Shown here: one piece after another, positions 1-17,329 of the stretch
How positions within the stretch are numbered: position 1 is the first letter of the stretch
Layout: each line of letters opens with the position of its first letter
DNA from: Achromobacter denitrificans NBRC 15125
Lineage (GTDB): Bacteria; Pseudomonadota; Gammaproteobacteria; Burkholderiales; Burkholderiaceae_B
Length of the DNA: 64,000 bases
Assembly: GCF_001571365.1 (NCBI RefSeq)
Contig: NZ_BCTQ01000009.1
Location: 62,001-126,000 of the forward strand
Reading direction: 5' to 3'
Position numbers and translations under genes: made by a program
Notes under the pieces: model-generated
Seen by the model: the letters and a program-made list of their open reading frames with translations, nothing else
The model's database searches: none
Told to the model about the DNA's origin: nothing

Positions 1-177
1 TTCGGGCATTCGGGCGTGGCCGGCGGGCTGGCGCACGTGGCCGAGGCCTGGATGCAGCTTGCGGGCCTGGCGGGCGAGCGCCAGATTGCGCCGCGCAGGC
101 GGGCGCTCGTGCACGCCGACGGCGGCGTGCTGTCCGCGCACGTCAGCCTGGTGTTGCAGGCGGAGGACGCGGCATGA
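1..177 (+). CDS. Thiolase-family (SCP-x/lipid-transfer type) protein, C-terminal fragment
   Basis: Only the last 58 codons lie in the window, read in frame from base 1 to a TGA at 175-177. They include a Gly-His-Ser-Gly-Val segment near the start and an Ala-Asp-Gly-Gly-Val-Leu-Ser-Ala-His segment near the end, which resemble the C-terminus of non-decarboxylating thiolases of the sterol-carrier-protein-x type. Such proteins usually work with a DUF35 partner, and that is exactly what follows: the next start codon overlaps this stop (ATGA). I infer a role in CoA-thioester carbon-carbon bond cleavage at the end of the catabolic operon's pathway. Family assignment is from a short piece, so the subtype is uncertain. 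Confidence 0.7.
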   Translation, partial: FGHSGVAGGLAHVAEAWMQLAGLAGERQIAPRRRALVHADGGVLSAHVSLVLQAEDAA

Positions 178-515
178 ACGAACGGCATCCCCTGGACTTG
201 CGGCGCTGCGCGGATTGCGGCGCGTGGTGGGCGCTGCGTCCGTATGCCTGCGCGGCCTGCGGCGGCACGAACCTGCAATGGGCGCGCGCGACCGGCGAAG
301 GCGAGGTGCTTGCGCACAGCACGGTGCACCGCGCGCCGGATGCGTCGTGGCGCGCGCTGGCGCCCTACGTGCTGGCGCTGGTGCGGCTGCGCGAGGGCGC
401 GGTGCTGATGGGCCATGCCGCGCCCGGCGTGGCGATCGGGCAGGCGGTATGCGCCCGCGATTTCGAGCATGGTGGCAACACCCTGCTTTGCTTCGAGGCG
501 CGCCGGCCGCCGTGA
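174..515 (+). CDS. DUF35 Zn-ribbon/OB-fold acyl-CoA-associated protein
   Basis: A 113-residue protein with an N-terminal rubredoxin-like zinc ribbon (Cys12-x2-Cys15 and Cys26-x2-Cys29) followed by a small beta-rich OB-fold region (about residues 40-110). This is the standard architecture of DUF35 proteins, which bind SCP-x-like thiolases or aldolases and help present the acyl-CoA. The start overlaps the stop of the upstream thiolase by four bases, so the two are translationally coupled and probably form one complex. No catalytic residues are expected in this family. The exact substrate is not visible. Confidence 0.88.
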   Translation: MNERHPLDLRRCADCGAWWALRPYACAACGGTNLQWARATGEGEVLAHSTVHRAPDASWRALAPYVLALVRLREGAVLMGHAAPGVAIGQAVCARDFEHGGNTLLCFEARRPP

Positions 516-590
516 CGCACAGCCGGCAAGCGTAGCTCCCTTTCCAACCCACTGAAAAAAAACGTCCCGCTGAGGACGGAGGAGACACTC

Positions 591-1574
591 ATGCCTGCAA
601 ATCCCGGATGGCGCGCGGCGCTGGCCGCCTTTACCCTGGCCGCCTGCGCGGCGCCGGGCCTGGCTGCGGCCGCGCCGGCCTGGCCGACGAAGCCCGTGAC
701 CCTGGTAGTGCCCTATCCGCCCGGCGGCCCGACAGACATCGTGGCGCGCGTGGTGGCGCAAGGCCTGGGCGATGCGCTGGGCCAGACCGTGATCGTCGAT
801 AACCGCTCGGGCGCGGGCGGCAATATCGGCGCCGACATGGTGGCCAAGAGCGCGCCAGACGGCTACACGCTGCTGCTGGCCACCACGGCGCACGCCATCA
901 ACATGTCGCTGTTCAAGAACCTCGGCTACGACACCCAGAAGAGTTTCGCGCCGGTGTCGCTGCTGACGAAGGGGCCGCTGGTCATCGTGACGCGGCCGGA
1001 CCTGCCGGCGCACAGCGTGAGCGAGCTCATCGCGCTGGCCAAGCAGCGCGCGGGGCAATTGACGTTTGCGTCATCGGGCAACGGGCAGTCCACCCATCTG
1101 TCGGCGGAGCTCTTCAATACGCTGGCGGGCACTCGCATGGTGCATGTGCCGTATCGGGGCAGCGCGCCCGCGCTGACCGATGTGATGGGCGGCCAGGCCG
1201 ACCTGATGTTCGACACCATGCTGTCGTCCATGCCGTATGTGAAGGCCGGCAAGCTCCAGGCGCTGGCGGTGACCGGCGCGCAGCGCTCGGCGGCCGCGCC
1301 GGACCTGCCCACCGTGGCGGAAGCGGGCCTGAAGAACTATGAGGCCACGGCCTGGAACGGCCTGTTGGCGCCGGTAGGCACGCCGCCGGCGGTGGTGCAG
1401 ACGCTGAGCGACGCCGTGCAGAAGGTGCTGGGCCGGCCGGACGTGCAGCAGAAGTTCGCGGCCCAGGGATTCGCGGCGGATTGGATGACGCCGGAGGACA
1501 CGCGCCGCTTCCTCGGCGACGAAGTACGGAAATGGGCCGACGTGGTTCGCGCCTCGGGCGCCACCATCAATTGA
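591..1574 (+). CDS. Bug-family tripartite tricarboxylate receptor (periplasmic binding protein)
   Basis: A 327-residue secreted binding protein. The N-terminus is a signal peptide ending near residue 29, followed by the Bug signature Trp-Pro-x-Lys-Pro and the VVPYPPGGPTD segment that builds the ligand carboxylate pocket. Length is typical for the family. A GGAGGAG ribosome site precedes the ATG. A Leu-Ala-Ala-Cys stretch (Cys19) inside the signal could be read as a lipobox, although most Bug proteins are soluble. No TctA/TctB membrane partners are nearby, so it is an orphan receptor. Its place between a thiolase pair and an acyl-CoA ligase suggests it binds the carboxylate that this operon degrades (inference). 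Confidence 0.93.
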   Translation: MPANPGWRAALAAFTLAACAAPGLAAAAPAWPTKPVTLVVPYPPGGPTDIVARVVAQGLGDALGQTVIVDNRSGAGGNIGADMVAKSAPDGYTLLLATTAHAINMSLFKNLGYDTQKSFAPVSLLTKGPLVIVTRPDLPAHSVSELIALAKQRAGQLTFASSGNGQSTHLSAELFNTLAGTRMVHVPYRGSAPALTDVMGGQADLMFDTMLSSMPYVKAGKLQALAVTGAQRSAAAPDLPTVAEAGLKNYEATAWNGLLAPVGTPPAVVQTLSDAVQKVLGRPDVQQKFAAQGFAADWMTPEDTRRFLGDEVRKWADVVRASGATIN

Positions 1575-1597
1575 AGGTCACACGGAAAGGAGCATTC

Positions 1598-3730
1598 ATG
1601 GTTTCCGACAACCGCGACGCGGCCGCGCTGGACCGGCTGCTGGCCCCGGCATCGATTGCGATCGTGGGCGCGTCCGACAACCCCGACAAGATCGGCGGGC
1701 GGCCCATTCATTACATGCGCCGCCACGGCTATGCGGGCACCTTGTATCCCATCAATCCGCAACGCGCCGAAGTGCAGGGAGAACGGGCATGGCCCGACCT
1801 GGACGCCTTGCCCGCGCCGCCGGACCTGGCCATCGTGGCGGTGGCGGGCGAGCAAGCCGTGCAGGCAGTGGACCGCTGCGCGGCGCTGGGGGTGTCGGCC
1901 GCCATCGTGATTTCGGCGGGGTTCTCGGAAACCGGCGAGGCGGGCCGCCGGACGCAAGACGCCATGACGGCGCGGGCGCGCGCGGCCGGCATGCGCATCG
2001 TGGGGCCCAATTCGCAGGGCCTGGCCAATTTCGGCAACGGCGCAATCGCAAGTTTCTCGACCATGTTCCTGGAGGTGGCGCCGCAGGACGGGCCGGTTGC
2101 CGTCATCAGCCAGAGCGGCGGCATGTGCGCGATGGTCTACGGCCTGTTGCGCCAGCGCGGCGTGGGCGTGAGGCATGTGCACGCCACGGGCAACGAGGCC
2201 GACGTCACGGTCGCCGAGCTGGCCTGCGCGGTGCTGCGCGACCCCGAGGTGCGCATCGTGCTGCTGTACCTGGAGTCGCTGCGCGATGCCGGCGCGCTGG
2301 CGGAGGCCGCGGCGCTGGCCCGCGCGCGCAACGTGCCGCTGATTGCGGTGAAGGCGGGCCGCTCCGAGGCGGGCGCCCGCGCGGCGGCGTCGCACACGGG
2401 CGCGCTGGCCAATGAAGACCGCACGGTGGATGCCTTCTTTGCGCACCACGCCATTCTGCGGGCCCGAGACCCGCAGGAACTGGTTCGCTACGCCGAACTG
2501 GCGCTGCGCGGCCCGCTGCCGCAAGGACCGCGCATGGTGGTGGTCAGCAATTCGGGCGCGAGCTGCGTGCTGGCGGTCGACGCGGCGGTGGAGCGCGGCC
2601 TGCAGATCGCGCCGCTGGGCCAGGCCACGCAGGAAATCCTGGGGCAGCGCCTGCCCGGCTTTGCCACCACCGGGAATCCGGTGGACATCACCGCCGCGCT
2701 GCTCTCGAACAACGGGCTGTTCGGCGAGGTGCTGCCCCCCATCGCGCAAGACCCCGCGGCCGATATGTTCCTGATCGACATCCCGGTGGCGGGCCGCGGC
2801 TACGACGTGGCGCGGTTTGCGGCCGACACCGCGCGCTTTGCGCAGGCAGCGGCCAAGCCGGTGGCCGTGGTGGCCTGGCAGGACCCGGTCGCCAGCGCGT
2901 TCCGGGCGCATGGCGTGCCGGTGTATGCGGACGAGCAGCAGGCGGTGGAGGCCCTGGCGGCGCTGTGGCGGCTGCACAGGCTGCGCGAACGCGCGCCCGT
3001 GGAAGCGTCGGTGGCGCCTGTGGAGGCGCCGGCCGATGCGCGGCCCGGGTTCCTGTCCGAAGCCGCCAGCCTGGCCTTGCTGGCCGCGCAGGGCATCGCC
3101 GTGGGCGAGCACGCGCTCTGTGCGAATGCCGATGCGGCCGTGGCAGCCTGGCACCGAATGGGCGCGCCGGTGGCGCTCAAGGCGTGCTCGGCGCGATTGC
3201 CGCACAAGTCGGAACACGGATTGGTGGCGCTGGGCATCAATGACGAGGCGGCGTTGCGCGAGGCCCTTGCGCGCCAGGCGCAGACACTGGCCAGGCTGGG
3301 CGTGGACGACGCGAGCTGGATCGTGGCGCGCATGCAGCGCGGCCTGCACGAGCTGGCGCTGGGCGTGCGCAACGACCCGGTGTTCGGTCCGGTGGTGATG
3401 GTGGGCGCGGGCGGCAAGTACGTGGAAGCGCTGGGCGACGTGGCGCTACTGATGCCGCCCTTCGCGGCCGAGGAAGCACTGGCGGCGCTGCGCAGCCTGC
3501 GCATCGGCAGGCTGCTGGCGGGTGTGCGCGGCGAGCCCGCGGCCGATATGCAGGCCGTGGCGGAGCAGGCGGCGCGCCTGGGCCGCTACGCGCTGGCGGC
3601 TGCGGGACACGTGGCCTCCATCGACATCAATCCGGTGCTGGTGGGCGCGCAGGGCGAAGGCGCCGTGGCGCTGGACGCGCTGGTGGAGTTGTCGGATGGA
3701 GTCAGCGAGGCGGCGCGGCGCGCGGCCTGA
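1598..3730 (+). CDS. NDP-forming acyl-CoA ligase (acetate-CoA ligase family)
   Basis: A 710-residue single-chain NDP-forming acyl-CoA synthetase. It has an N-terminal CoA-binding Rossmann domain (about 10-140), succinyl-CoA-ligase-like domains (about 160-460) and a C-terminal ATP-grasp domain (about 495-705). The Ser-His-Thr-Gly motif at His266 matches the phosphohistidine loop of ADP-forming acetyl-CoA synthetases. The ATG at 1598 follows an AAAGGAG site; a longer upstream reading would run into the preceding receptor gene. It would activate a carboxylic acid to its CoA thioester at the cost of ATP to ADP. The acid is unknown. Flanking by two Bug receptors suggests import and activation of a small organic acid. 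Confidence 0.9.
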   Translation: MVSDNRDAAALDRLLAPASIAIVGASDNPDKIGGRPIHYMRRHGYAGTLYPINPQRAEVQGERAWPDLDALPAPPDLAIVAVAGEQAVQAVDRCAALGVSAAIVISAGFSETGEAGRRTQDAMTARARAAGMRIVGPNSQGLANFGNGAIASFSTMFLEVAPQDGPVAVISQSGGMCAMVYGLLRQRGVGVRHVHATGNEADVTVAELACAVLRDPEVRIVLLYLESLRDAGALAEAAALARARNVPLIAVKAGRSEAGARAAASHTGALANEDRTVDAFFAHHAILRARDPQELVRYAELALRGPLPQGPRMVVVSNSGASCVLAVDAAVERGLQIAPLGQATQEILGQRLPGFATTGNPVDITAALLSNNGLFGEVLPPIAQDPAADMFLIDIPVAGRGYDVARFAADTARFAQAAAKPVAVVAWQDPVASAFRAHGVPVYADEQQAVEALAALWRLHRLRERAPVEASVAPVEAPADARPGFLSEAASLALLAAQGIAVGEHALCANADAAVAAWHRMGAPVALKACSARLPHKSEHGLVALGINDEAALREALARQAQTLARLGVDDASWIVARMQRGLHELALGVRNDPVFGPVVMVGAGGKYVEALGDVALLMPPFAAEEALAALRSLRIGRLLAGVRGEPAADMQAVAEQAARLGRYALAAAGHVASIDINPVLVGAQGEGAVALDALVELSDGVSEAARRAA

Positions 3731-3754
3731 ATGGCGGAACCAACGGAGACATTC

Positions 3755-4729
3755 ATGAAAAACCCTGGATACAAGACCCTGATACTGGGCGCCGCGCTGG
3801 CCCTGTCCGCCACTGCCCAAGCCGCATCGGCCTGGCCGGCGCGGCCCATCACGCTGGTGGTGCCGTTTCCACCGGGTGGCACGACGGACTTGCTGGCTCG
3901 GTTGGTGGCGCGCGAAGCCGGCGCGAGGCTGGGCCAGAGCCTGGTGGTGGAGAACCGGCCCGGCGCGGGCGGCGGCATCGGCGCGGCGGCAGTCGCCCGC
4001 GCGCAGCCCGACGGCTACACGCTACTGATGGGCACGCTGGGCACGCAGGCCACCAACCAGTTCATCTACGCGCAAATGCCCTATGACTCGGCCAGCGGCT
4101 TCGCGCCCGTGACGCTGGTGGCCAATTCGCCCAACGTGCTGCTGGTCAACCCCAAACTGGGCATTGCGTCGGTCGCGCAGCTCATCGAACAGGCGCGGCG
4201 CGCGCCGGGTTCGCTGAACTTCGCGTCCACCAGCCTGGGCGGCTCCCCGCATCTGTCTGGCGAGCTGTTCAACCGGCTGGCCAAGGTGGACATCCGCCAC
4301 GTTCCATACAAGGGCTCGGCGCCCGCCATGACGGATCTGCTGGGCGGGCAGGTGCAGCTTATGTACGACAACCTGCCGTCGGCCATGGGCCAGATCAAGG
4401 CCGGCGCGGTGCAGGCGCTGGCGGTGACGACCACGCAGCGCGTGCCCATGCTGCCGGACGTGCCCACGGTGGCCGAGGCCGGGCTGCCGGGCTATGAGGT
4501 GAATTCCTGGTTCGGCCTGCTGGCGCCGGCCGGCACGCCGTCCGAAGTCGTCGGCAAGCTGCGGGACGCGGTGGCCGCGGCGCTGGCCGAGCCGGGCACG
4601 CGCCGGCAGGTCGAGGAACTGGGCGCGATTCCGGTGGCGGGCACGCCGGCGCAATACGCCGAGACCATCCGCGCCGACACCGCCAAGTGGCGGCAAGTCA
4701 TCCAGGATGCGGGCATCCGGCCCCAATGA
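3755..4729 (+). CDS. Bug-family tripartite tricarboxylate receptor (second copy)
   Basis: A 324-residue periplasmic receptor with signal peptide (residues 1 to about 24, ending Ala-Gln-Ala-Ala) and the Bug signature around VVPFPPGGTTD. The ATG at 3755 follows CGGAGA at a good distance. An in-frame ATG at 3731, directly after the previous stop, would add eight residues before the signal and is less likely. It is clearly different in sequence from the first Bug protein in the same operon, so it is not a recent tandem duplicate and may bind a different ligand. No membrane permease is linked to it. Confidence 0.92.
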   Translation: MKNPGYKTLILGAALALSATAQAASAWPARPITLVVPFPPGGTTDLLARLVAREAGARLGQSLVVENRPGAGGGIGAAAVARAQPDGYTLLMGTLGTQATNQFIYAQMPYDSASGFAPVTLVANSPNVLLVNPKLGIASVAQLIEQARRAPGSLNFASTSLGGSPHLSGELFNRLAKVDIRHVPYKGSAPAMTDLLGGQVQLMYDNLPSAMGQIKAGAVQALAVTTTQRVPMLPDVPTVAEAGLPGYEVNSWFGLLAPAGTPSEVVGKLRDAVAAALAEPGTRRQVEELGAIPVAGTPAQYAETIRADTAKWRQVIQDAGIRPQ

Positions 4730-4758
4730 GGCGGCGCATCCCGAACAAGGAGGCAGAC

Positions 4759-6117
4759 ATGAACGACAAAGCAGGCAGGCTGCGCATCGGCTCGGGTTCG
4801 GGCTGGTGGGGCGACCGCATCGACCCGGCGCGTTGGAACGCGGAGCGTAGCGCGCTGGATTTTCTGTGTTTCGAGACCATGGCCGAGGCCACCGTGTCCG
4901 CCGCGCAGGTGCGCAAACGGCGCGATCCGGCCTTCCCGGGCTACGACACCTGGCTGGATGAGCGCATGCGCGCGGTGCTGCCGCATTGCAAGGCGAACGG
5001 CACCCGCATCGTGTCCAACCAGGGCTGGATCAACCCGCGGGCCGCCGCCCGCCGCGTGGCGGAGCTGTGCGCGCAGGCGGGCTGGGCCGACGCCCGCGTG
5101 GCCGCCGTGACGGCCACGGACCTGAGCGCGGAAATTGCCGCCAGCGATCTGCGCATCCTGGAGACCGGCGCGCCGGTGTCGACGGTGCGCGACACGTTGA
5201 TCTCGGCCGAGCCCTATGCGGGCGCGGCCGCCATCGTGCAGGCCCTGGAGCAGGGCGCGGACATCGTCATCACCGGACGCGTGGCCGATCCTTCGCTCTT
5301 CCTCGCGCCCATGATGCACCGCTACGGCTGGCGCGAAGACGACTGGACCCGGCTGGGGCAGGGCAGCGGCATCGGCCATTTGCTGGAATGCGGCGCGCAG
5401 GTCACGGGCGGCTACTTCGGCGACCCCGGCTACAAGGACGTGCCCGAGCCCTGGAACCTGGCGTTCCCCTATGCCGATGTGGACGCCGACGGCACGGCGG
5501 AAATCGGCAAGGTGGCGGGCACGGGCGGCAGCATCGACCTGCGCACTGTGAAAGAGCAGATGTTCTACGAAGTCCACGACCCGGCGCGCTACATCACGCC
5601 GGACGTGGTGGTGGACTTCACCACGGCGCGGCTGGAACAGGTCGCCCAGGACCGCGTGCGCGTGAGCGGCATTTCCGGGCATGCGCGCACCCCTACGCTC
5701 AAGGTGTCCATCGGCTGCACCGAAGGCCACATCGGCGAAGACATGTTTTTCTTCGCCGGCCCGGGCTGCCTGGAAAAGGCGCGGCTGGCCGAGACCATCC
5801 TGCGGGAGCGCCTGCGCACCGCAGGCCTGCAGGCCGAGGACCTGCGCATCGATTTCATCGGCGTGAACGCCGTGCACGGCGCGGCCTCGGCCGCCCTGCG
5901 CGAGGAGCCGGCCGAAGTGGCGGTGCGCATCGCGGCGCGCTGCGCCAGCCGCGCGCAGGCCGAGAAGATCGGCCGCGAGGTGGACGGCATGGCCGTCTGC
6001 GGGCTGGCGTCCACCGGCAAGCGCGTGCCGCACCAGGACCGCACGCGCGAAGTCATCGGCCTGTGGTCCACGCTGGTGCCGCGCGAGCGCGTGGCGTGCC
6101 GCGTGGAGTTCGTTTAA
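4759..6117 (+). CDS. AtuA-family (DUF1446) acyclic terpene utilization protein
   Basis: A 452-residue cytoplasmic protein of the AtuA/DUF1446 family, recognised from the N-terminal Ile-Gly-Ser-Gly-Ser-Gly-Trp-Trp-Gly-Asp segment, the FETMAEATVS region and the SNQGWINP and TGRVADPSL segments. AtuA is encoded in the citronellol/geraniol degradation cluster of Pseudomonas, but its reaction is not settled to my knowledge. The ATG at 4759 follows AAGGAGG. The C-terminal domain found in longer AtuA proteins is here a separate downstream gene. No geranyl-CoA carboxylase subunit is present, so a terpene substrate is not implied. Confidence 0.9.
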   Translation: MNDKAGRLRIGSGSGWWGDRIDPARWNAERSALDFLCFETMAEATVSAAQVRKRRDPAFPGYDTWLDERMRAVLPHCKANGTRIVSNQGWINPRAAARRVAELCAQAGWADARVAAVTATDLSAEIAASDLRILETGAPVSTVRDTLISAEPYAGAAAIVQALEQGADIVITGRVADPSLFLAPMMHRYGWREDDWTRLGQGSGIGHLLECGAQVTGGYFGDPGYKDVPEPWNLAFPYADVDADGTAEIGKVAGTGGSIDLRTVKEQMFYEVHDPARYITPDVVVDFTTARLEQVAQDRVRVSGISGHARTPTLKVSIGCTEGHIGEDMFFFAGPGCLEKARLAETILRERLRTAGLQAEDLRIDFIGVNAVHGAASAALREEPAEVAVRIAARCASRAQAEKIGREVDGMAVCGLASTGKRVPHQDRTREVIGLWSTLVPRERVACRVEFV

Positions 6118-6126
6118 GGAGACGTC

Positions 6127-6510
6127 ATGCGGGTTACGTTGCGTAGCGTGGCACACACGCGCAGCGGCGACAAAGGCAATACCTCGAATATCGCGGTCAT
6201 TGCCTACGAGCCGCAGTTCTATCCCCACATCAAGCGCGCGCTCACGGTAGAAGCCATGCGCGCCATCTACAACGAGCAGGCCGTGCGCGGCGACATCCGG
6301 CGCTACGAGGTGGATGGCCTGGGCGTGCTGAACTTCGTGCTCGACGGCGCGCTGGGCGGCGGCGTGTCGCGTAGTCTGGCTATCGACAATTACGGCAAGG
6401 CCCTGGCCAGCGCCGTGCTACGGTTGGAGCTGGAGGTGCCGGACGATCTGGCGCCTTTGCTGCGAGGTCCCCAACCCACCAAGGAGGGTAGCGGATGTTC
6501 GAAGACCTGA
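6127..6510 (+). CDS. AtuA-related C-terminal-domain protein
   Basis: A 127-residue protein corresponding to the C-terminal domain of long AtuA/DUF1446 proteins, with a conserved start region reading His-Thr-Arg-Ser-Gly-Asp-Lys-Gly-Asn-Thr-Ser-Asn. It starts nine bases after the AtuA stop and has its own AAGGAG site, so the split is a real gene boundary and not a frameshift. The last five codons overlap the next gene. It presumably associates with the preceding AtuA subunit. Biochemical role unknown. Confidence 0.88.
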   Translation: MRVTLRSVAHTRSGDKGNTSNIAVIAYEPQFYPHIKRALTVEAMRAIYNEQAVRGDIRRYEVDGLGVLNFVLDGALGGGVSRSLAIDNYGKALASAVLRLELEVPDDLAPLLRGPQPTKEGSGCSKT

Positions 6511-7256
6511 AATCCCGCACCGTGCTGGTCACCGGCGCGTACAGCGGGCTGGGGCGCCACTTTGCCGGGGTGCTGTCGGGCGCGGGCGCCCGAGTGGCGC
6601 TATGCGGACGCCGAACGGCGCTGGGCGAGGAAGCCGCGGCCGCCATCCGCGCGGCGGGCGGACAGGCCTGCGCGATCGGCATGGACGTCACGCAGCCGGC
6701 CAGCGTGCAGGCGGCGTTCGACGCCGCGGCCGAGGCGCTGGGGCCGGTGAGCGTGGTCATCAACAATGCCGGCATCGCGGTGTCGCGGCCGGCGCTGGAG
6801 CTTACCGAAGACGATTGGACCGGGCTGGTGGACGTGAATCTCAACGGCGCCTGGCGGGTGGCCCAGGCGGCCGCGCGGCATTTCATCGCGCACGGCACGT
6901 CGGGCGCCATCGTCAACATCGCGTCCATCCTGGGCCAGCGCGTGGCCTCGCACGTGGCGCCCTACGCGGCCGCCAAGGCCGGCCTGCTGCACCTGACCCG
7001 GGCGCTCGCCCTGGAATGGGCGCGCCACGGCATCCGCGTGAACGCGCTCGCCCCCGGCTACATCGCCACCGACCTCAACCGTGAATTCTTCGCCTCGCCC
7101 GCCGGCGAAGCGCTGATCAAGCGCGTGCCGCAACGCCGGCTCGGCCAGCCCCAGGACCTGGACGGCCCGCTGCTGTTGCTGGCGTCGGACGCCTCGGCGT
7201 TCATGACCGGTTCGGTCATCGACGTGGATGGCGGCCACCTGGCCAGTTCGCTATAA
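6495..7256 (+). CDS. SDR-family NAD(P)-dependent oxidoreductase
   Basis: A 253-residue classical short-chain dehydrogenase. The cofactor motif Thr13-Gly-x3-Gly18-x-Gly20, the NNAG motif at 90-93, and the catalytic triad Ser144, Tyr157 and Lys161 are all present, so it should be active. It overlaps the preceding gene by 16 bases. With the dehydrogenase, kinase and ligase that follow, it matches the place of LvaD in the Pseudomonas putida levulinate operon, where LvaD interconverts 4-keto and 4-hydroxyacyl-CoA. That assignment is by gene context only; general beta-hydroxyacyl dehydrogenase activity is the alternative. Confidence 0.92.
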   Translation: MFEDLKSRTVLVTGAYSGLGRHFAGVLSGAGARVALCGRRTALGEEAAAAIRAAGGQACAIGMDVTQPASVQAAFDAAAEALGPVSVVINNAGIAVSRPALELTEDDWTGLVDVNLNGAWRVAQAAARHFIAHGTSGAIVNIASILGQRVASHVAPYAAAKAGLLHLTRALALEWARHGIRVNALAPGYIATDLNREFFASPAGEALIKRVPQRRLGQPQDLDGPLLLLASDASAFMTGSVIDVDGGHLASSL

Positions 7257-7304
7257 CCCGCAACCCCGTATATCCGGGGCCGCGCCCCGGCAAGGAGACG
7301 CCGC

Positions 7305-8531
7305 ATGGATTTCTCGCTACCGCCCGAACTGGAAGACTACCGCCGCCGCGTGCGCGATTTCGTCGACCGCGAACTGATCCCGCTAGAAGCCGACCGGGCC
7401 AACTACGACGATCACGAGAACATCGCCGAAGCCGCGCTGGAACGCATGCGCGCGCGGGTGCGCGAAGCCGGCCTGTGGGCCTTGCAGATGCCGCGCGAAC
7501 TCGGCGGCCAGGGCCTGCCCATGGCGGGACTGGCCGCCTGCTACGAAGAAATGAACCGCTCCATTTTCGGGCCAGTGTGTTTCAACGCGGCCGCACCCGA
7601 CGACGGCAACATGCGCGTGCTGGCCCAAGTGGCCCGGCCGGACCAGAAGGCGCGCTGGCTGCAGCCCATCATCGACGGCAAGGTGCGTTCGGCATTCGTC
7701 ATGACCGAGCCGCACCCCGGCAGCGGCTCGGATCCCTCCATGATGCGCACCACCGCCACGCTCAAGAACGGCAAGTGGGTGGTGAACGGGCGCAAGTGGT
7801 TCATCACCGGCGCGGGCGTGGCGCGGCATTTCATACTCATCGCCCGCACCTCGGAGGACTCGCGCAAGGGCCTGAGCGCGTTCCTGTTCCACGCGGACCA
7901 GCCGGGCTGGCGCATCGAGCGCCGCATTCCCATCATGGGGCCCGAAGAGCATGGCGGGCACTGCGAACTGGTGTTCGACGGCCTGGAGATCCCCGAGGAG
8001 AACCGGCTGATGGAGGTGGGCGACGGCCTCAAGCTCACGCAGATCCGCCTGGGGCCCGCGCGGCTGACGCACTGCATGCGCTGGCTGGGGCTGTCGCGGC
8101 GCGCCATGGCGGTGGCGGTGGACTACGTGGGCCAGCGCAGCAGCTTCGGCCAGAAGCTGGCCGAGCGCGAAGGCGTGCAGTGGCTGCTGGGCGAGGCCGC
8201 CATGCAGATCGAGATCGGCCGCCTGCTGACCATGCGCGCCGCCGTCCGGCTGGACCAGGGCGACTACGCGCGCAAAGAGATCTCCATGGCCAAGATCGTG
8301 GTGTCCGAAACCCTGCAAAAGGTGGTCGATACGGCGCTTCAGTTGAACGGCGCGCGCGGCTACTCCAAGGACACCCCCCTGGAATGGATCTACCGCTATG
8401 CGCGGCAGGCGCGCTTGGTGGACGGCGCTTCCGAGGTGCACAAGATGGTGCTGGCGCGCTATCTGATGGACGAGGGCGACGGCTACTGGCGCTGGGATGA
8501 AGCGGACGCCCCGCGCAAGGCGCTGGTATGA
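7305..8531 (+). CDS. Acyl-CoA dehydrogenase (ACAD10/11- or LvaC-like)
   Basis: A 408-residue flavin acyl-CoA dehydrogenase with the expected N-terminal helical, middle beta and C-terminal helical domains. FAD and substrate segments include MTEPHPGSGSDP (about 130-140) and the C-terminal catalytic region Gly-Ala-Ser-Glu377-Val-His. That C-terminal form and the adjoining kinase gene resemble the ACAD10/ACAD11 and LvaC branch, where a 4-phosphorylated acyl-CoA is processed instead of a simple dehydrogenation. An AAGGAG site precedes the ATG. The stop overlaps the kinase start (ATGA). The subfamily should be confirmed by phylogeny. Confidence 0.9.
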   Translation: MDFSLPPELEDYRRRVRDFVDRELIPLEADRANYDDHENIAEAALERMRARVREAGLWALQMPRELGGQGLPMAGLAACYEEMNRSIFGPVCFNAAAPDDGNMRVLAQVARPDQKARWLQPIIDGKVRSAFVMTEPHPGSGSDPSMMRTTATLKNGKWVVNGRKWFITGAGVARHFILIARTSEDSRKGLSAFLFHADQPGWRIERRIPIMGPEEHGGHCELVFDGLEIPEENRLMEVGDGLKLTQIRLGPARLTHCMRWLGLSRRAMAVAVDYVGQRSSFGQKLAEREGVQWLLGEAAMQIEIGRLLTMRAAVRLDQGDYARKEISMAKIVVSETLQKVVDTALQLNGARGYSKDTPLEWIYRYARQARLVDGASEVHKMVLARYLMDEGDGYWRWDEADAPRKALV

Positions 8532-9598
8532 CTCGCGCCGCCCCCGTTACCCCGCCGCCGTGGTTGCCCGCGCTGGCGGCCTATCTGGGCGGCCTGGGCC
8601 TGGCGGACCCCGCCACGCTCACGCTGCGGCCCCTGTCCGGCGGGCAATCCAATCCCACTTACCTGCTTGAAGACGCCACGGGCCGGCGCGTGCTGCGCAA
8701 GCAGCCGCCGGGCGAATTGCTGCCCTCGGCCCACGCGGTGGATCGCGAATACCGCGTGATGTCCGCGCTGGCGCACAGCGCCGTGCCGGTGCCGCGCATG
8801 CTGCACTACTGCGCCGATCGCGCCATCGTGGGAACGCCGTTCTACCTGATGAGTTTTGCGGATGGGCGCGTCTTCATGGACCCGGCGCTGCCCGGCATGG
8901 AGGCGGCCGAGCGCGGCGCGCTCTACGCCGAAGCGGGCCGCGTGCTGGCGGCGCTGCACGCCGTGAACCCGGCCGAGGCGGGGCTGTCGGACTACGGCCG
9001 CAGCGGCGATTACTTCGCGCGGCAAGTGGGCCGTTGGACCCGCCAGTACCGCGACACGCAGACCGAGGCCATCGCCGCCATGGACGCGCTCATCGATTGG
9101 CTGCCGCGCCATCTTCCCGAAGACGACGGCCAGACCCGGCTGGTGCATGGCGATTACCGCATCGACAACCTGGTGTTCCACCCCTCCGAGCCGCGGGCGA
9201 TCGCGCTGCTGGATTGGGAATTGTCCACGCTGGGCCATCCGCTGGCGGACCTGGCCTATCACTGCATGTGCTGGCGCATTCCGCCCGCGCTGTGGCGCGG
9301 CATCGCGGGCCTGGACCTGGCCGCGCGGGGCATTCCCGACGAAGACGCGTTCGTGGCCGTCTACTGCCGCGAACGCGGCATCGCGCCGCCGCCCAACTGG
9401 GATTTCTATCTGGCCTACAGCTTTTTCCGCATCGCCGCGATTCTGCAAGGCGTGTACGCGCGTGCCCGGGCCGGCAACGCCGCCGCCGAGGACGCGCTGG
9501 AAATGGGCGCGCGAGTGGCGCCACTGGCGGAACTGGGCTGGCAGGCGGCAAGCCGGGAAACCCGCCGCAAGGCGGCCAACCAGGAGGAACCGCAATGA
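8528..9598 (+). CDS. APH-fold phosphotransferase (acyl-CoA kinase, LvaA-like)
   Basis: A 356-residue aminoglycoside-phosphotransferase-fold kinase. The catalytic loop His207-Gly-Asp209-x4-Asn214 and the metal-binding Leu-Asp229-Trp-Glu231 are intact. Kinases of this group next to an acyl-CoA dehydrogenase are the bacterial counterparts of the N-terminal domain of ACAD10/11 and of LvaA, which phosphorylates the 4-hydroxyl of 4-hydroxyacyl-CoA. It is coupled by overlapping stop and start to the genes on both sides (8528 and 9595), supporting a shared pathway. The small partner LvaB seen in Pseudomonas putida was not found here. Antibiotic resistance is unlikely given the context. Confidence 0.88.
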   Translation: MTRAAPVTPPPWLPALAAYLGGLGLADPATLTLRPLSGGQSNPTYLLEDATGRRVLRKQPPGELLPSAHAVDREYRVMSALAHSAVPVPRMLHYCADRAIVGTPFYLMSFADGRVFMDPALPGMEAAERGALYAEAGRVLAALHAVNPAEAGLSDYGRSGDYFARQVGRWTRQYRDTQTEAIAAMDALIDWLPRHLPEDDGQTRLVHGDYRIDNLVFHPSEPRAIALLDWELSTLGHPLADLAYHCMCWRIPPALWRGIAGLDLAARGIPDEDAFVAVYCRERGIAPPPNWDFYLAYSFFRIAAILQGVYARARAGNAAAEDALEMGARVAPLAELGWQAASRETRRKAANQEEPQ

Positions 9599-11217
9599 TC
9601 GCCGACACCGACGAACTGCCGCGCAACGCGGCCAACCACGTGCCGCTGTCGCCGCTGGGTTTCCTGGACTGGGCCGCCTGCGTGTTCCCGGCGCGCCCGG
9701 CGCTCGTGCATGGCGCCACGTTCAGCCAGAGTTGGAGCGCCACCCGGGATCGCTGCCGACGCATGGCGTCGGCGTTGCGGGCCTGGGGCGTCGGGCGCGG
9801 CGACGTGGTGGCGGTGCTGGCGCCGAATACGCCGGCGCTGTACGAGGCGCACTTCGGCGTGCCGATGGCGGGCGCGGTGCTCAATGCGCTCAACACGCGG
9901 CTGGATGCGGCCACGCTGGCCTTCATCCTGTCGCACGGCGGGGCGACGGTGCTGCTATTCGACAGCGAGTACAGCGAACAGGTTCGTGAAGTGCTGGCCC
10001 TGCTCGACGCGCCGCCGCGCGCGGTGCGCATCGAGGATCGAGAGTTCGCCGGCGAGCACGGCACGCTGGGCGAGGCCGAGTATGAGGGCTGGCTGGCGGC
10101 CCAGCCCGCCGATGCGGACTGGGAACCGCCCGCCGATGAATGGCAGGACATCTGCCTCAATTACACCTCGGGCACCACCGGCAACCCCAAGGGCGTGCTG
10201 TATCACCATCGCGGCGCGTATCTCAATGCCATGGGCAATGTGTTGTCCTGCGGCATGCCGCCGCATGCGGTGTATTTGTGGACGCTGCCCATGTTCCATT
10301 GCAATGGCTGGTGCTTTCCCTGGACGCTCGCGGCGCTGGCCGGCACCAGCGTGTGCCTGCGGCGGGTGGAGCCCGCCGCCGTCTTCGACGCCATCGAGCG
10401 TCACCGCGTGGGTTTTTTTTGCGCCGCGCCGGTGGTGCTGACGATGCTGGTCAACGCGCCGGTTGCCGTGCGCCGGCGCGCCGCGCATCCGGTGCAGGCC
10501 ATGACTGGCGGCGCCGCACCCCCCGCGGCCATCATCGAAGCCATGGAGGAGCTGGGCATCGGCGTCACGCATCTGTACGGACTCACCGAAACCTATGGGC
10601 CATCCATCAGCTGCGCCTGGCACGAAGAATGGGATGCCCTGCCGCTGGCGCAGCGCGCCGCCCGCAAGGCCCGGATCGGCGTGCGCAAGCTGAATGTGGA
10701 AGCCGTGCAGGTGCTGGACGCCGAGGGCCGCCCGGTGCCCGCCGACGGCGCCACCCTGGGCGAAATCGCGCTGCGGGGCAACACGCTCATGAAGGGCTAT
10801 CTGCACGACCCCGCCGCCACCGCCGAGGCGTTTGCCGGCGGCTGGTTCCATTCCGGCGACCTGGGCGTGGTGCACGCCGACGGCTATATCGAGATCAAGG
10901 ATCGCGCCAAGGACATCATCATTTCCGGCGGCGAGAACATCTCCACCGTCGAAATCGAAGGCGTGCTGTACCGGCATCCCGACGTGCTCGAAGCCGCGGT
11001 GGTCGCGCGCCCGGACGCGACCTGGGGCGAAACGCCCTGCGCCTTCGTGGCGCTGAAGGACGGCGCCCGCGCCGATACCGAGGGCATCCTGGCGCACTGC
11101 CGCCAACACCTGGCGCGGTTCAAGGTGCCGCGCACCATCGTGTTCGGACCGCTGCCCAAGACCGCCACCGGCAAGATCCAGAAGTTCCTGCTGCGCGAGC
11201 GGGCCAGGGGGTTGTAG
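9595..11217 (+). CDS. AMP-forming acyl-CoA synthetase
   Basis: A 540-residue ANL-superfamily ligase that adenylates a carboxylate and transfers it to CoA. Visible are the P-loop YTSGTTGNPKG (190-200), the YGLTE motif, the hinge region around Asp-Leu-Gly and the IISGGENI segment, and the C-terminal catalytic Lys527 (Thr-Gly-Lys). The start at 9595 overlaps the kinase stop. It is the last gene before a strong terminator, in the position and type of LvaE. It is a second CoA-ligase chemistry in one operon (the other is NDP-forming), which suggests two different acids are activated. Confidence 0.92.
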   Translation: MIADTDELPRNAANHVPLSPLGFLDWAACVFPARPALVHGATFSQSWSATRDRCRRMASALRAWGVGRGDVVAVLAPNTPALYEAHFGVPMAGAVLNALNTRLDAATLAFILSHGGATVLLFDSEYSEQVREVLALLDAPPRAVRIEDREFAGEHGTLGEAEYEGWLAAQPADADWEPPADEWQDICLNYTSGTTGNPKGVLYHHRGAYLNAMGNVLSCGMPPHAVYLWTLPMFHCNGWCFPWTLAALAGTSVCLRRVEPAAVFDAIERHRVGFFCAAPVVLTMLVNAPVAVRRRAAHPVQAMTGGAAPPAAIIEAMEELGIGVTHLYGLTETYGPSISCAWHEEWDALPLAQRAARKARIGVRKLNVEAVQVLDAEGRPVPADGATLGEIALRGNTLMKGYLHDPAATAEAFAGGWFHSGDLGVVHADGYIEIKDRAKDIIISGGENISTVEIEGVLYRHPDVLEAAVVARPDATWGETPCAFVALKDGARADTEGILAHCRQHLARFKVPRTIVFGPLPKTATGKIQKFLLRERARGL

Positions 11218-11314: not shown

Positions 11315-12508
11315 TCAACCCTTGCGCGCCTGCGCAATCAACCCATCCAGCTGCGTCAGCATCGTGTCGATTTCTTCAGCCGTCACGTTCAAGGCCGGCA
11401 TGAAGCGCAGCAGGTTGCCGCGCGGCGCGTTCAGCAGCAGGCCGTTGGGCGCCAGGTTGCGCGCGGATTCGACGATGGCGGGGCCGTCGTCGCGGTCCAT
11501 GACCAGCGCGCGCAGCAGGCCCATGCCGCGCTCGCCCTTCATGCCGTACTTGGCCGACAGGGCCAGCAGGCCTTCGGACAGCTGCTTGGCGCGGGCGTTG
11601 ACCGACTCCATGAAGCCCGGCGCGGCCAGCGCGTCGAACACCGCCACGCCCACGGCGGCCATCAGCGGATTGCCGTTGTACGTGCCGCCCTGGTCGCCGT
11701 GCGAGAACACGCAGACTTCCTGGCGCGCCAGGAGCGCGGCCAGCGGCACGCCGCCGCCGATGCCCTTGGCCAGCGTCATGATGTCCGGCACCACGTCGGA
11801 TTGCTGGTAGGCGAACATGGTGCCCGTGCGGCCCATGCCGGTCTGGACTTCGTCGACGATGAAGAGCAGCTTGTGTTCGTCGGCCAGCTTGCGCAGGCCC
11901 TGCATGAACTCCTTGCTGGCCGGGATGACGCCGGCTTCGCCCTGGACGGGTTCGAGCATGATGGCGACGGTCTGGTCGTCGATCAGCTTGCGCACGGATT
12001 CCAGGTCGTTGATTTCGGCCTTGGGGAAGCCTTCGACCTGCGGGGCGAACATCTTGTCCCAGCCCGGCTTGCCCGACGCGGACATGGTCGCCAGCGTGCG
12101 GCCGTGGAAGCCGTGGTTCATGGTGATGATCTTGTGCGCGCCCTTCTTGTTGACCTGGCCCCATTTGCGCGCCAGCTTGATGGCCCCTTCGTTGGCTTCG
12201 CCGCCGCTATTGGCGAAGAAGACGCGGTCGAAGACCGAGGCGCCGGTCAGGCGCTGGGCGAGTTCGATGGACGGCAGGTTGTAGAACGCCGGCGAGGGGT
12301 TCATCAGCAGCTTGGACTGGTCCAGCAGTGCCTTCTGCATTTCCGGGGCGCAGTGGCCCAGGGTGTTGACGGCCCAGCCCTGGACGAAGTCCAGGTATCG
12401 CTTGCCCGCGTGATCCTCCAGCCAGGATCCCTGGCCTCGCACGAACACGAGGTCCGGGCGGGAGGTGATCTCCATGAGGGTGTTGACGTTGAACTGGCTG
12501 AATTCCAT
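11315..12508 (-). CDS. argD: Acetylornithine/class-III PLP aminotransferase
   Basis: A 397-residue class-III aminotransferase most like acetylornithine transaminase. The PLP lysine is Lys248 in Leu-Ala-Lys-Gly-Ile-Gly-Gly-Gly, and the pyridine-nitrogen partner is Asp219 in Val-Asp-Glu-Val-Gln-Thr-Gly. The phosphate-binding SGGEAN (101-106) and NHGFHGRT (131-138) segments are conserved. It would transfer an amino group between acetylornithine (or a related omega-amino acid) and 2-oxoglutarate. It stands alone, without other arginine genes, so it may be a second ArgD paralogue or a related omega-transaminase; the symbol reflects the family. Confidence 0.8.
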   Translation of the reverse strand: MEFSQFNVNTLMEITSRPDLVFVRGQGSWLEDHAGKRYLDFVQGWAVNTLGHCAPEMQKALLDQSKLLMNPSPAFYNLPSIELAQRLTGASVFDRVFFANSGGEANEGAIKLARKWGQVNKKGAHKIITMNHGFHGRTLATMSASGKPGWDKMFAPQVEGFPKAEINDLESVRKLIDDQTVAIMLEPVQGEAGVIPASKEFMQGLRKLADEHKLLFIVDEVQTGMGRTGTMFAYQQSDVVPDIMTLAKGIGGGVPLAALLARQEVCVFSHGDQGGTYNGNPLMAAVGVAVFDALAAPGFMESVNARAKQLSEGLLALSAKYGMKGERGMGLLRALVMDRDDGPAIVESARNLAPNGLLLNAPRGNLLRFMPALNVTAEEIDTMLTQLDGLIAQARKG

Positions 12509-14761: not shown

Positions 14762-15901
14762 TCAACGCGAGAAGCCGCGCGCCGCGATTTCCCAGACGTC
14801 CTGCACCACGCCGTCCTTCACCACCACCAGGCCGTCGTGCAGGTTGAAGGTGGGGTCGACGTGCGAAGGCACCAGGCGCAGCACGGCGCCCAGGGCGGGC
14901 GCCTGCGCGCCGGGTTCCACGCGCACCACGCCGTGTTCATCGTTGATGGCCGCGTAGGTGAGCCCCGGCTCGCCGTAGACCGCGGGCGGGCCGCATTCGG
15001 CCGTGGTGGACTTCAGGCCCGCGTCCAGGATGACACGCCCAGGGGCGGGCGTGCTCATGACGGTGGACAGCACGAAGAGGCTGTTCTGGAACTTCAGCGG
15101 GCCGTTCCATTCGTTGGCGCCGTAGTCGCCGTCCATGAAGGCGTAGGAACCGGCCTGCAGCTCGGTGTAGACGCCGCTGGCCGCGTCGAATTCCACGCTG
15201 CCCGTGCCGCCGCCGGTGATGGTGTCGCAGGCGATGCCGCTCTCGCGCAGCAGCTGCGCATAGGACGCGGCGATGCGCGCGGCCTGCCGGCAGACGGCGG
15301 CGCGCTCTTCGCGCGTGCGGTAGTGCTGCACCGAGCCGTGGTAGGCCTGCAGCCCCGCGAAATTCAGGCCGGGCAGGGCGCGGGCCTGCTGCGCCAGCGC
15401 CAGCACGGTGGCGTCGTCGGACACGCCGCAGCGGCCCTGGCCCACGTCCACCTCGACCAGCACGTCGATCTCGGCGCCGGCCCGGGTCATGGCGGCCGAC
15501 AGCTGCGCCAGGTTTTCGGCGTTGTCCACGCACACGCTGATCTTGGCGGCGCGCGCCAGTTGGCCCAGCAGCGCCAGCTTGGCCGGGCCGACCACTTCGT
15601 TGCTGATGTGGATGTCGCGGATGCCGGCGGCCACGAAGGGCAGGGCTTCGCTGACCTTCTGGCAGCAGATGCCGCGCGCGCCCAGGGCCAGCTGGCGCAA
15701 GGCGATTTCCGGGCACTTGTGCGCCTTGGCGTGGGGCCGCAGGGCCACCTCGTGCCGGTCGGCCCAGGCCTGCATGGCGCGCAGATTCGCCTCGAAGGCC
15801 GGCAGGTCCAGCACCAGGCTGGGCGTGTCGATCCGGGACAAGGGATCGCCCGGCTGGGCCGCCGGGGGCAGCGCTATGCCGCGTATGACTTCCTGGGACA
15901 T
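14762..15901 (-). CDS. D-threonine aldolase (DSD1-like fold-type III PLP enzyme)
   Basis: A 379-residue enzyme with an alanine-racemase-like PLP barrel and a C-terminal D-serine-dehydratase-type domain. PLP lysine is Lys59 (Pro-His-Ala-Lys-Ala-His-Lys). The divalent-metal ligands His347 and Asp349 (His-Val-Asp-Pro) sit at the same numbers I remember for the Achromobacter xylosoxidans enzyme, and much of the sequence is familiar from it. It cleaves D-threonine and other D-beta-hydroxy-amino acids to glycine and an aldehyde. Asp instead of Cys at the second metal position fits the aldolase, not the dehydratase. It is divergent from a TRAP transporter that might import a substrate (inference). 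Confidence 0.93.
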   Translation of the reverse strand: MSQEVIRGIALPPAAQPGDPLSRIDTPSLVLDLPAFEANLRAMQAWADRHEVALRPHAKAHKCPEIALRQLALGARGICCQKVSEALPFVAAGIRDIHISNEVVGPAKLALLGQLARAAKISVCVDNAENLAQLSAAMTRAGAEIDVLVEVDVGQGRCGVSDDATVLALAQQARALPGLNFAGLQAYHGSVQHYRTREERAAVCRQAARIAASYAQLLRESGIACDTITGGGTGSVEFDAASGVYTELQAGSYAFMDGDYGANEWNGPLKFQNSLFVLSTVMSTPAPGRVILDAGLKSTTAECGPPAVYGEPGLTYAAINDEHGVVRVEPGAQAPALGAVLRLVPSHVDPTFNLHDGLVVVKDGVVQDVWEIAARGFSR

Positions 15902-16157: not shown

Positions 16158-17120
16158 ATGAAACTGAAGCACTGGATCACCACCCTGACCTTGGCCGTCG
16201 CCGCGGTCGGCGCCGTCGGCTCCGCGCAAGCGCAGCAATTCTTCCGCATCGGCACGGGCGGAACCGCCGGCACCTACTATCCCATCGGCGGCATCATCGC
16301 CAACGCGGTATCGCAACCCGGCAAGCTGATCGCCACGGCGGTCGCCTCCAACGGGTCGGTGGCCAACATCAACGGTATCCTCGGCGGTTCGTTCGAGGCG
16401 GGATTCACGCAGTCGGACGTGGCCTACTGGGCCTATAGTGGCACCGGCACCTTCGAAGGCAAGCCCAAGGCGCAGGACCTGCGCCTGATCTCCACGCTGT
16501 ACCCGGAAAGCATCCACCTGGTGGCGCGCAAGGGGTCCGGCATCAAGAGCGTGGCCGACCTGAAGGGCAAGCGCGTGTCCATGGACGAGCCGGGCTCGGG
16601 CACGCTGGTCGACGTGCGCCTGATCCTGGGCGCCTACGGCATGACCGACAAGGACATCAAGGCCGAATACCTCAAGCCCAACCAGGCGGGCGACAAGCTC
16701 AAGGACGGCGGGCTGGACGCGTTCTTCTTCGTGGGTGGCGCCCCCGCCGGCGCCATCGCGGAACTGGCGTCCAGCGGCGCCGGCATCGAGATCGTGCCGC
16801 TGGTCGGCCCCGAGATCGACGCGCTGCGCGCCAAGCAGGAGTTCTTCACGCCCGACACCATCGCCGCGAACACCTACCAGAACGTGGGCGAAGTGAAGAC
16901 CATCTCGGTCAACGCGCAGATGGTCACGTCGGCCAAGCTGCCGGAACAGGTGGTGTACGACGTCACCAAGGCGCTGTACAGCGACGCCACGCGCAAGACG
17001 CTGGACAACGGCCACGCCAAGGGCAAGCTCATCACGCGCGACAACGCGATCAAGGGCGCGGGTATTCCGTTCCACCCGGGCGCCGAGAAGTTCTACAAGG
17101 AAATCGGCCTGCTGAAGTAG
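16158..17120 (+). CDS. TAXI-family TRAP transporter solute-binding protein
   Basis: A 320-residue periplasmic binding protein with a signal peptide (1 to about 25, ending Ala-Gln-Ala) and the family hallmark Ile-Gly-Thr-Gly-Gly-Thr-Ala-Gly-Thr-Tyr-Tyr-Pro directly after it. TAXI proteins bind small carboxylates such as glutamate-type acids and deliver them to a fused TRAP permease, which is the next gene. An AACGGAG site precedes the ATG. Between this gene and the permease lie 209 bases with a structured repeat, so the two subunits may be expressed at different levels. Confidence 0.94.
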   Translation: MKLKHWITTLTLAVAAVGAVGSAQAQQFFRIGTGGTAGTYYPIGGIIANAVSQPGKLIATAVASNGSVANINGILGGSFEAGFTQSDVAYWAYSGTGTFEGKPKAQDLRLISTLYPESIHLVARKGSGIKSVADLKGKRVSMDEPGSGTLVDVRLILGAYGMTDKDIKAEYLKPNQAGDKLKDGGLDAFFFVGGAPAGAIAELASSGAGIEIVPLVGPEIDALRAKQEFFTPDTIAANTYQNVGEVKTISVNAQMVTSAKLPEQVVYDVTKALYSDATRKTLDNGHAKGKLITRDNAIKGAGIPFHPGAEKFYKEIGLLK

Positions 17121-17211
17121 GCCCCCCCCGAGCGCCTTCGGCGCTTCCCCCCGGGGGGCGCCGCAGTGGGCCGGCGGAGCCGGACCCACGCGGCCCCGAT
17201 GGGGCGGCGGC
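17121..17211 (+). repeat. Structured intergenic repeat, copy R1
   Basis: Begins at the base after the TAXI stop codon. Three successive hairpins can be drawn: GCGCC/GGCGC, CCCCC/GGGGG, and TGGGCCGGC-GGA-GCCGG-A-CCCA, closed by GCCGC/GCGGC. It aligns over its whole length with copies at 29312-29402 and 47126-47218. The sequence differs, but several paired positions change together. It sits inside the TRAP operon between the binding protein and permease genes. Confidence 0.82.
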
Positions 17212-17329
17212 GTGCGGCGAGTTTGCTGCTTGGGAAACGAAGTTTGCCTATCTGCGGTGCGCTGCGCCGCGCTTGAGTGGGGCCGCCATGAGCGGCCCTG
17301 CTTGCTGAATCATCCTGAGAATCACGGCG
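17212..17329 (+). other. Leader between repeat R1 and TRAP permease
   Basis: About 118 bases without a gene. A TTTGC-containing stretch (17221-17247) and a GGCGATGG sequence just before the permease ATG are visible. No terminator with U-tract or operator was recognised, so read-through from the receptor gene is plausible. Confidence 0.4.

Follow-up and report, generated by a model that had tools for sequence, protein, structure and literature searches.

An Achromobacter denitrificans operon that joins an AtuA pair to a kinase and an acyl-CoA dehydrogenase with ACAD11-type active-site residues

Gene content of the operon

We analysed a window of 64,000 nucleotides from Achromobacter denitrificans NBRC 15125 (bases 62001-126000 of contig 9 in a genome of 6.7 Mb), at the start of which 11 close-packed genes on the plus strand (positions 1-11217) bring together an AtuA pair and a kinase-dehydrogenase set that has the active-site residues known from 4-phosphoacyl-CoA chemistry. 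Each gene has a Pfam match above the curated cut-off and the intergenic gaps range from -16 to 75 bases, in agreement with an initial annotation made from the letters of this DNA, which had described eleven tightly spaced same-strand genes; all genes named there were found. The window start falls inside the thiolase gene, which in full spans -995 to 177, and an IclR regulator gene (Pfam) lies upstream and overlaps the start of that gene. With the regulator counted in, the unit has 12 genes in the order iclR, thiolase-like protein, DUF35 protein, Bug1, NDP-forming ligase, Bug2, AtuA, AtuA small subunit, short-chain dehydrogenase/reductase (SDR), acyl-CoA dehydrogenase (ACAD), APH-type kinase and AMP-forming ligase. 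Other Achromobacter and Bordetella show the same order, which is therefore beyond chance.

The two Bug/TctC solute receptors (591-1574, PF03401, and 3755-4729, by Pfam; both plus strand) and the NDP-forming acyl-CoA ligase (1598-3730, plus strand; CoA_binding_2, Succ_CoA_lig and ATP-grasp_5) are additional to the genes named in the initial annotation, and the ligase matches six NCBIfam models, each below its cut-off. The AMP-forming acyl-CoA ligase at 9595-11217 (plus strand), a putative counterpart of LvaE, matches NF006020 (PRK08162) with 847 bits against a cut-off of 677. By Pfam, no crotonase-type hydratase and no HCDH-family dehydrogenase was found among the operon genes.

Active sites and relatives of the encoded proteins

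According to the part of PMC12440821 available to us, the ACAD11 residues R626, H634 and R637 (motif HCMR) and D753 lie near the 4-phosphate and the base, are common to LvaC and are not found in conventional ACADs, R631 being a general ACAD residue; in ACAD11 with R626, H634 and R637 substituted the phospho-intermediate stays unprocessed. The window ACAD (7305-8531, plus strand) carries R248, R253, H256-C-M-R259 and D373 at the aligned ACAD11/LvaC active-site positions, so that the set is complete, and its best solved relative is ACAD11, barely ahead of 4hr3. In an ACAD tree of 47 rows the 40 rows with the HCMR motif, and no others, form one side of a branch (98/96); L097, which its clustering had suggested as a further HCMR-type case, was ruled out by its residues. 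The APH-type kinase (8528-9598, plus strand) keeps the HGD....N signature as HGDYRIDN, with D209 and N214, and its solved relatives are led by 3dxp (386 bits) followed by ACAD11 (307 bits, 1.6e-90), so that by its relatives the kinase is ACAD11-like. Sequence comparison thus gives good support to a predicted 4-phosphoacyl-CoA chemistry of ACAD and kinase, the latter being a putative 4-hydroxyacyl-CoA kinase, as the initial annotation had proposed in pointing to the phosphorylation of 4-hydroxyacyl-CoA. The SDR (6495-7256, plus strand, by Pfam) adjoins the ACAD and the kinase and is a putative counterpart of LvaD or else a 3-hydroxyacyl-CoA dehydrogenase; the four genes for SDR, ACAD, kinase and AMP ligase were rightly recognised as the parts of the levulinate (lva) route, since they match lvaD/C/A/E as given in the accessible portion of PMC6692424.

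Orthology of the ACAD to ACAD10/11 is not supported. Against the ACAD11 chains the window ACAD reaches 216-223 bits, compared with 386-398 bits for L077, a protein of another genus member, and these scores set its subfamily apart from ACAD10/11 proper. L077 served as a stand-in for LvaC of Pseudomonas putida, which is absent from this comparison, and its own placement in the tree is weak (82/35). The ACAD phylogeny proposed in the initial annotation, with unrelated subfamilies as its adverse outcome, therefore gives a divided answer: the subfamily is separate, while the active site is the same and the protein falls on the HCMR side of the tree.

Reactions such as that of citramalate lyase split a hydroxy acid by a retro-aldol step at a tertiary carbinol, with release of a free acid or opening of a ring. 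We predicted the structure of the window AtuA (4759-6117, plus strand, PF07287) from 41 aligned sequences (pLDDT 89.4, pTM 0.88), and the sole PDB match of the model under an E-value of 0.001 was 9evf (TM 0.68, E 3.1e-20), titled 'Citramalate lyase - ADP - pyruvate complex'. The 9evf protein, whose deposited name is 'Acyclic terpene utilization AtuA family protein / Citramalate lyase, subunit A (cmlA)', is also recovered when a sequence profile is used for the search (whole-sequence 1.2e-07, best stretch 6.5e-04). The review PMC12016498, in the text open to us, describes ThnQS as an 'AtuA-like lyase' that cleaves a tertiary 3-hydroxyacyl-CoA to a 3-oxoacyl-CoA and cites this as unpublished, and the available part of PMC4682846 has a DUF1446 gene adjoining the methylaspartate ammonia-lyase gene in mesaconase-containing clusters, DUF1446 being the label on 4 of the 40 AtuA homologues listed. 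The small, ferredoxin-like subunit (6127-6510, plus strand, PF23544) has a conserved HxR(S/C)GDKG region and adjoins AtuA in all 61 unique orthologous loci. The fold match to citramalate lyase subunit A and this literature suggest, from the model and by analogy, that AtuA and its small partner form a retro-aldol lyase with AtuA as the predicted large subunit; the scheme in the initial annotation had given AtuA no role. Within the small subunit, the R(S/C)GDKG motif is nearly invariant and nucleotide- or phosphate-binding in appearance; the citramalate lyase structure contains ADP.

The thiolase-like protein, whose C-terminus is encoded at 1-177 (plus strand; Thiolase_C_1/Thiolase_N), is followed by a DUF35/OB-fold partner (ChsH2_C; 174-515, plus strand; PF01796, 3.4e-11). 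The closest solved relatives of the thiolase-like protein include Sal (9myr) and Ltp2 (6ok1), which are steroid aldolases with DUF35 partners, and also true thiolases. At the position of the nucleophilic Cys, Gly stands in 19 of 19 aligned sequences (the window protein and 18 others), versus Cys in 7yvy and 7pxp. The missing nucleophile rules out ordinary thiolysis as the default reading and leaves the earlier statement that the substrate is 'cleaved by the thiolase' unsupported. The window protein keeps the catalytic Tyr that Sal and Ltp2 have in their YD motif; the motif here reads YDSF, in which the third position is Ser as against Cys in Sal and His in Ltp2 (PMC12329534, from the part available), and the region of Ltp2's Tyr344 has His in the window protein. 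The protein is not an ordinary thiolase; it is a likely candidate for an aldolase.

Linkage of AtuA and the dehydrogenase across genomes

Orthologous loci were defined by an AtuA of at least 60% identity, which gave 61 unique loci after removal of five duplicates and with L048, whose AtuA alignment is in two pieces, left out; the sample covers 20 of the 25 AtuA-bearing genomes from outside the genus and four of the five plasmid records at 60-80%. As controls we used 20 of the 22 AtuA paralogues under 50% identity together with four from the window's own genome. An HCMR-type ACAD lies within 11 kb of AtuA in 22 of the 61 orthologous loci, a count that an independent six-frame motif scan reproduces, and in 18 of the 41 loci whose flanks both exceed 8 kb, compared with 0 of the 24 control loci (one of them without a detectable full AtuA). 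Among 43 genomes of the genus, the operon-type ACAD (at least 88%) is present in 12 and AtuA in seven, all of them within the 12, and each of the seven has the operon-type ACAD beside AtuA. The window AtuA is at 95% to those of A. agilis, Achromobacter sp. RTa and Root83, and the loci of A. agilis, Root83 and Marseille-Q4962 turned out to be duplicates of loci from the genus genomes. The neighbourhood is conserved in related genomes, where a lack of conservation would have refuted the initial annotation, and a chance neighbourhood is ruled out by this conservation and the paralogue control.

The 22 linked loci are made up of 10 from Achromobacter and Bordetella, with the window-type ACAD, 11 from Cupriavidus, among them C. 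metallidurans CH34 (L086), and one from a Comamonas plasmid. The Cupriavidus ACADs belong to another subfamily, about 40% identical to the window type. The AtuA tree unites Achromobacter/Bordetella with Cupriavidus in one clade (97/91) and leaves Comamonas outside. The Comamonas plasmid (L084) carries ACAD-SDR-kinase, NDP ligase, Bug, OB, thiolase, IclR and the AtuA pair in a different order, its ACAD being cut by the locus end. Because the ACADs of Achromobacter/Bordetella and of Cupriavidus come from different subfamilies, the combination of AtuA and ACAD was, on the evidence of these sequences, assembled or reassembled on at least two occasions.

The thiolase-DUF35 pair is found near AtuA in 22 of the 61 loci and the NDP ligase in 19, and this linkage extends to Methylobacterium and another alphaproteobacterium (L043, L045, L085). 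A PF04199 cyclase is near AtuA in nine of the 61, and in L043 and L085 the gene next after the AtuA pair encodes an SMP-30/gluconolactonase, with a third, weak match (31%) at the edge of L047; such ring-opening hydrolases nearby hint at cyclic or lactone substrates. PRISE-like Rossmann reductase genes also lie near AtuA in two Alphaproteobacteria (L043:12678-13724 and L045:4851-5945); the name of the PRISE family derives from progesterone 5-beta-reductase and iridoid synthase.

On its downstream side the unit is closed by a convergent acetylornithine-transaminase gene (11315-12508, minus strand). About 5 kb downstream of the operon, at 16158-19354, are genes for an NMT1_3/TAXI-type solute receptor and a DctM-type TRAP permease; since Pfam also finds these two families within the L045 cluster of AtuA, thiolase and NDP ligase, they may be the real importer of the operon. 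A relative of the 3-hydroxy-D-aspartate aldolase BhcC, below the cut-off (388 vs 690 bits), is encoded at 14762-15901 on the minus strand, and by eye a look-alike also lies downstream of the Bordetella genomosp. 4 operon (L046). A consensus scan found one promoter against 1.0 expected, which is chance level, and nine terminator-like sites against 6.4 expected.

A possible route and its likeness to known systems

We infer that both modules act on one substrate, which would be a gamma-oxygenated acid (a 4-oxo or 4-hydroxy acid or one that stems from a gamma-lactone) and probably a beta-branched, dicarboxylic one. The AMP ligase would form its CoA ester, the SDR would make or keep the 4-hydroxyl, the kinase would phosphorylate this hydroxyl with ATP, and the HCMR-type ACAD would eliminate the phosphate to give a 2-enoyl- or 3-hydroxyacyl-CoA. 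If C3 carries a branch, the hydroxyl there would be tertiary and not oxidisable, so that the C-C bond would be split by retro-aldol cleavage. AtuA with its small subunit may carry out this cleavage on the free-carboxylate side, giving a 3-oxoacyl-CoA and a free acid, and/or the Cys-less thiolase-DUF35 pair may do so on the CoA side, after which the NDP-forming ligase would re-activate the released acid. The lack of a crotonase-type hydratase and an HCDH-family dehydrogenase, together with two candidate retro-aldol lyases, fits a tertiary alcohol intermediate, although the SDR could act as a 3-hydroxyacyl-CoA dehydrogenase. What the sequences show directly is the gene content, the active-site residues, the fold match of AtuA and the recurrent linkage; substrate, order of steps and each activity are predictions. 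We hold this linear reading, from removal of the gamma-oxygen via phosphate through retro-aldol cleavage at the tertiary beta-carbon to re-activation by the NDP ligase, tentatively and are not quite half persuaded of it. As a modular route, in which the kinase and HCMR-ACAD remove a gamma-hydroxyl to leave a tertiary beta-hydroxy acid for a split of the AtuA/citramalate-lyase type, the scheme would allow branched lactone- or terpenoid-like acids to be degraded without carboxylation and would have been assembled in Burkholderiales at least twice with different ACAD subfamilies, a generalization that we consider possible, with more doubt than belief.

The modules are of known kinds and their combination is new. 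The earlier remark that no described pathway has both sets agrees with our finding no description of AtuA with a 4-phosphoacyl-CoA system among the papers listed from the open-access literature, a weak negative, since the search aimed at the combination listed 10 of 521 papers and subscription papers mostly fall outside this literature. If the reading is true, AtuA-family proteins, which bear a 'terpene' label in many genomes, would have a general chemistry, the retro-aldol splitting of tertiary beta-hydroxy acids, and the phosphorylation known from the metabolism of levulinate and, in mammals, of 4-hydroxy acids would also feed the cleavage of branched acids. The annotations 'acyclic terpene utilisation' and 'thiolase' would then be corrected in Achromobacter, Bordetella, Cupriavidus and Comamonas.

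Several observations weigh against this linear reading. On the side of the enzymes, the AtuA model shares only about 15% identity with 9evf at an rmsd of 6.2, the ADP in that structure has no explanation, a PDB search with the small subunit found no relative, the second catalytic residue of Sal is Ser in the thiolase-like protein, so that aldolase activity is only putative, and the SDR fold also yields 3-hydroxyacyl-CoA dehydrogenases, which would need no tertiary alcohol. On the side of the genomes, five of the 12 genus operons (G008, G010, G011, G018 and G040) are without AtuA, the NDP ligase directly preceding the SDR, and no AtuA of at least 60% was found elsewhere in these five genomes. 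In Bordetella genomosp. 4 the operon is complete but for SDR-ACAD-kinase, and neither an ACAD nor a kinase of the window type was found elsewhere in the genome. An HCMR ACAD is missing from the examined flank of 39 of the 61 AtuA orthologues (in 20 of the 61 that flank is at most 8 kb on at least one side), a window-type ACAD (65-68%) lies elsewhere than at AtuA in three of 14 genomes searched, the Cupriavidus loci mostly have the ACAD near AtuA without the kinase (near in two of 11), and the presence of two Bug receptors suggests that there may be two substrates.

Since modules are missing singly from sister operons, they can work apart, and a second reading would make Bug2-AtuA-AtuAc and SDR-ACAD-kinase parallel entries for two different co-occurring acids under one IclR, with products that meet at a core of thiolase-DUF35, NDP ligase and AMP ligase. 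Either module can be lost alone with the rest intact, and there is one Bug receptor to each half, which holds as well for the Methylobacterium plasmid with its divergently oriented halves. Bug2 is missing together with AtuA in those AtuA-less operons that were seen whole (those of G008 and G010 were seen in 4-kb pieces only, as was, among the other genus operons, that of G022). The ACAD tree includes three of the AtuA-less operons and places all of them among AtuA-bearing ones, and for this reason loss of AtuA, evidently tolerated, is the simplest reading of their phylogeny. However, the linkage with two ACAD subfamilies and its absence from all paralogue loci suggest a tighter tie, and within the genus AtuA never occurs without the ACAD; we judge such a parallel arrangement unlikely, while giving it real weight. 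Of the interpretation in the initial annotation, then, the kinase/ACAD chemistry, the match to the lva set and the neighbourhood stand, thiolase cleavage does not, and the single pathway is weakened by sister operons that lack AtuA or the SDR-ACAD-kinase set.

A pathway for levulinate or a straight-chain 4-hydroxy acid, with AtuA as a passenger or side activity, would draw on the correspondence of SDR, ACAD, kinase and ligase to the lva set and on the occurrence of the triad apart from AtuA. Seven more genus genomes (L063-L069) carry the triad (ACAD 77-79%) without AtuA in a different setting; elsewhere the triad or parts of it occur, whole in L080 and L082, with a ligase in L081 and L108 (L081 without an adjoining SDR), and without an adjoining kinase in L079. 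In the settings examined, those of four of the seven genus genomes, the triad adjoins genes for an ABC transporter of the branched-chain type, for an alpha/beta hydrolase and for a ferritin-like protein (L063:11393-17542), the last with sub-threshold DUF455/AurF matches only in a Pfam search of L063 only; this is probably another 4-hydroxy acid route. Against such a pathway, the ACAD is outside the ACAD10/11 subfamily proper, the operon genes include no counterpart of LvaB, LvaR or LvaF/G, and AtuA is retained beside the set in seven genus genomes and in Bordetella. A plain lva operon is ruled out by the ACAD subfamily and the accessory-gene tests, and the lva-like reading as a whole seems to us improbable.

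An acyclic-terpene (atu) pathway with an incidental kinase and ACAD, for which AtuA itself and an acyl-CoA carboxylase pair just upstream of the triad-less Bordetella operon could be cited, is very improbable, since the window operon has no carboxylase, AtuE-like hydratase or TetR-type AtuR, which rules out a plain atu operon, and its AtuA is split in two pieces versus the single 615 aa protein given in the available text of PMC4847356. The Bordetella carboxylase (L046:1-3316; carboxyltransferase and biotin carboxylase with an MCC-type domain) lies directly upstream, as if carboxylation had taken over there from the phosphate shift.

Compared with known systems, the operon resembles the lva operon of P. 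putida, whose scheme we take from the accessible parts of PMC6692424, PMC11342911 and PMC12440821, and ACAD10/ACAD11 in the active-site residues of kinase and ACAD and in the adjoining SDR and AMP ligase. It differs from lva in an ACAD subfamily separate from ACAD10/11 proper (LvaC itself being outside the comparison), in having neither lvaB nor LvaF/G transport, in an IclR regulator instead of the sigma-54 LvaR, and in the added AtuA, thiolase-DUF35, NDP ligase and Bug receptors. Of the atu system, a search covering the operon genes found no geranyl-CoA carboxylase (AtuC/F), AtuE hydratase or AtuR. With citramalate lyase subunit A (9erq, 9evf) and ThnQS the window AtuA shares the PF07287 family, the fold and a GRxxDP region, and in ThnQS AtuA is in two parts, as in the window; it differs from the solved citramalate lyase in its low identity (about 15%) and in standing beside a predicted 4-phosphoacyl-CoA system. 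The thiolase-like protein is similar to the steroid aldolases Sal-ShyDUF35 and Ltp2-ChsH2 in the thiolase fold, the absence of the usual nucleophilic Cys, the DUF35 partner and the YD-motif Tyr, but it has YDSF instead of YDCY or YDHF and retains the thiolase-like GH(S/C)G His. Other proteobacterial SDR-ACAD-APH sets, such as that of Paroceanicella (L080), with a DUF6285 gene, and the alphaproteobacterial L108, with a ligase, are alike as well, yet they have no adjoining AtuA or thiolase-DUF35, both of which the Achromobacter operon joins to its SDR, ACAD and kinase.

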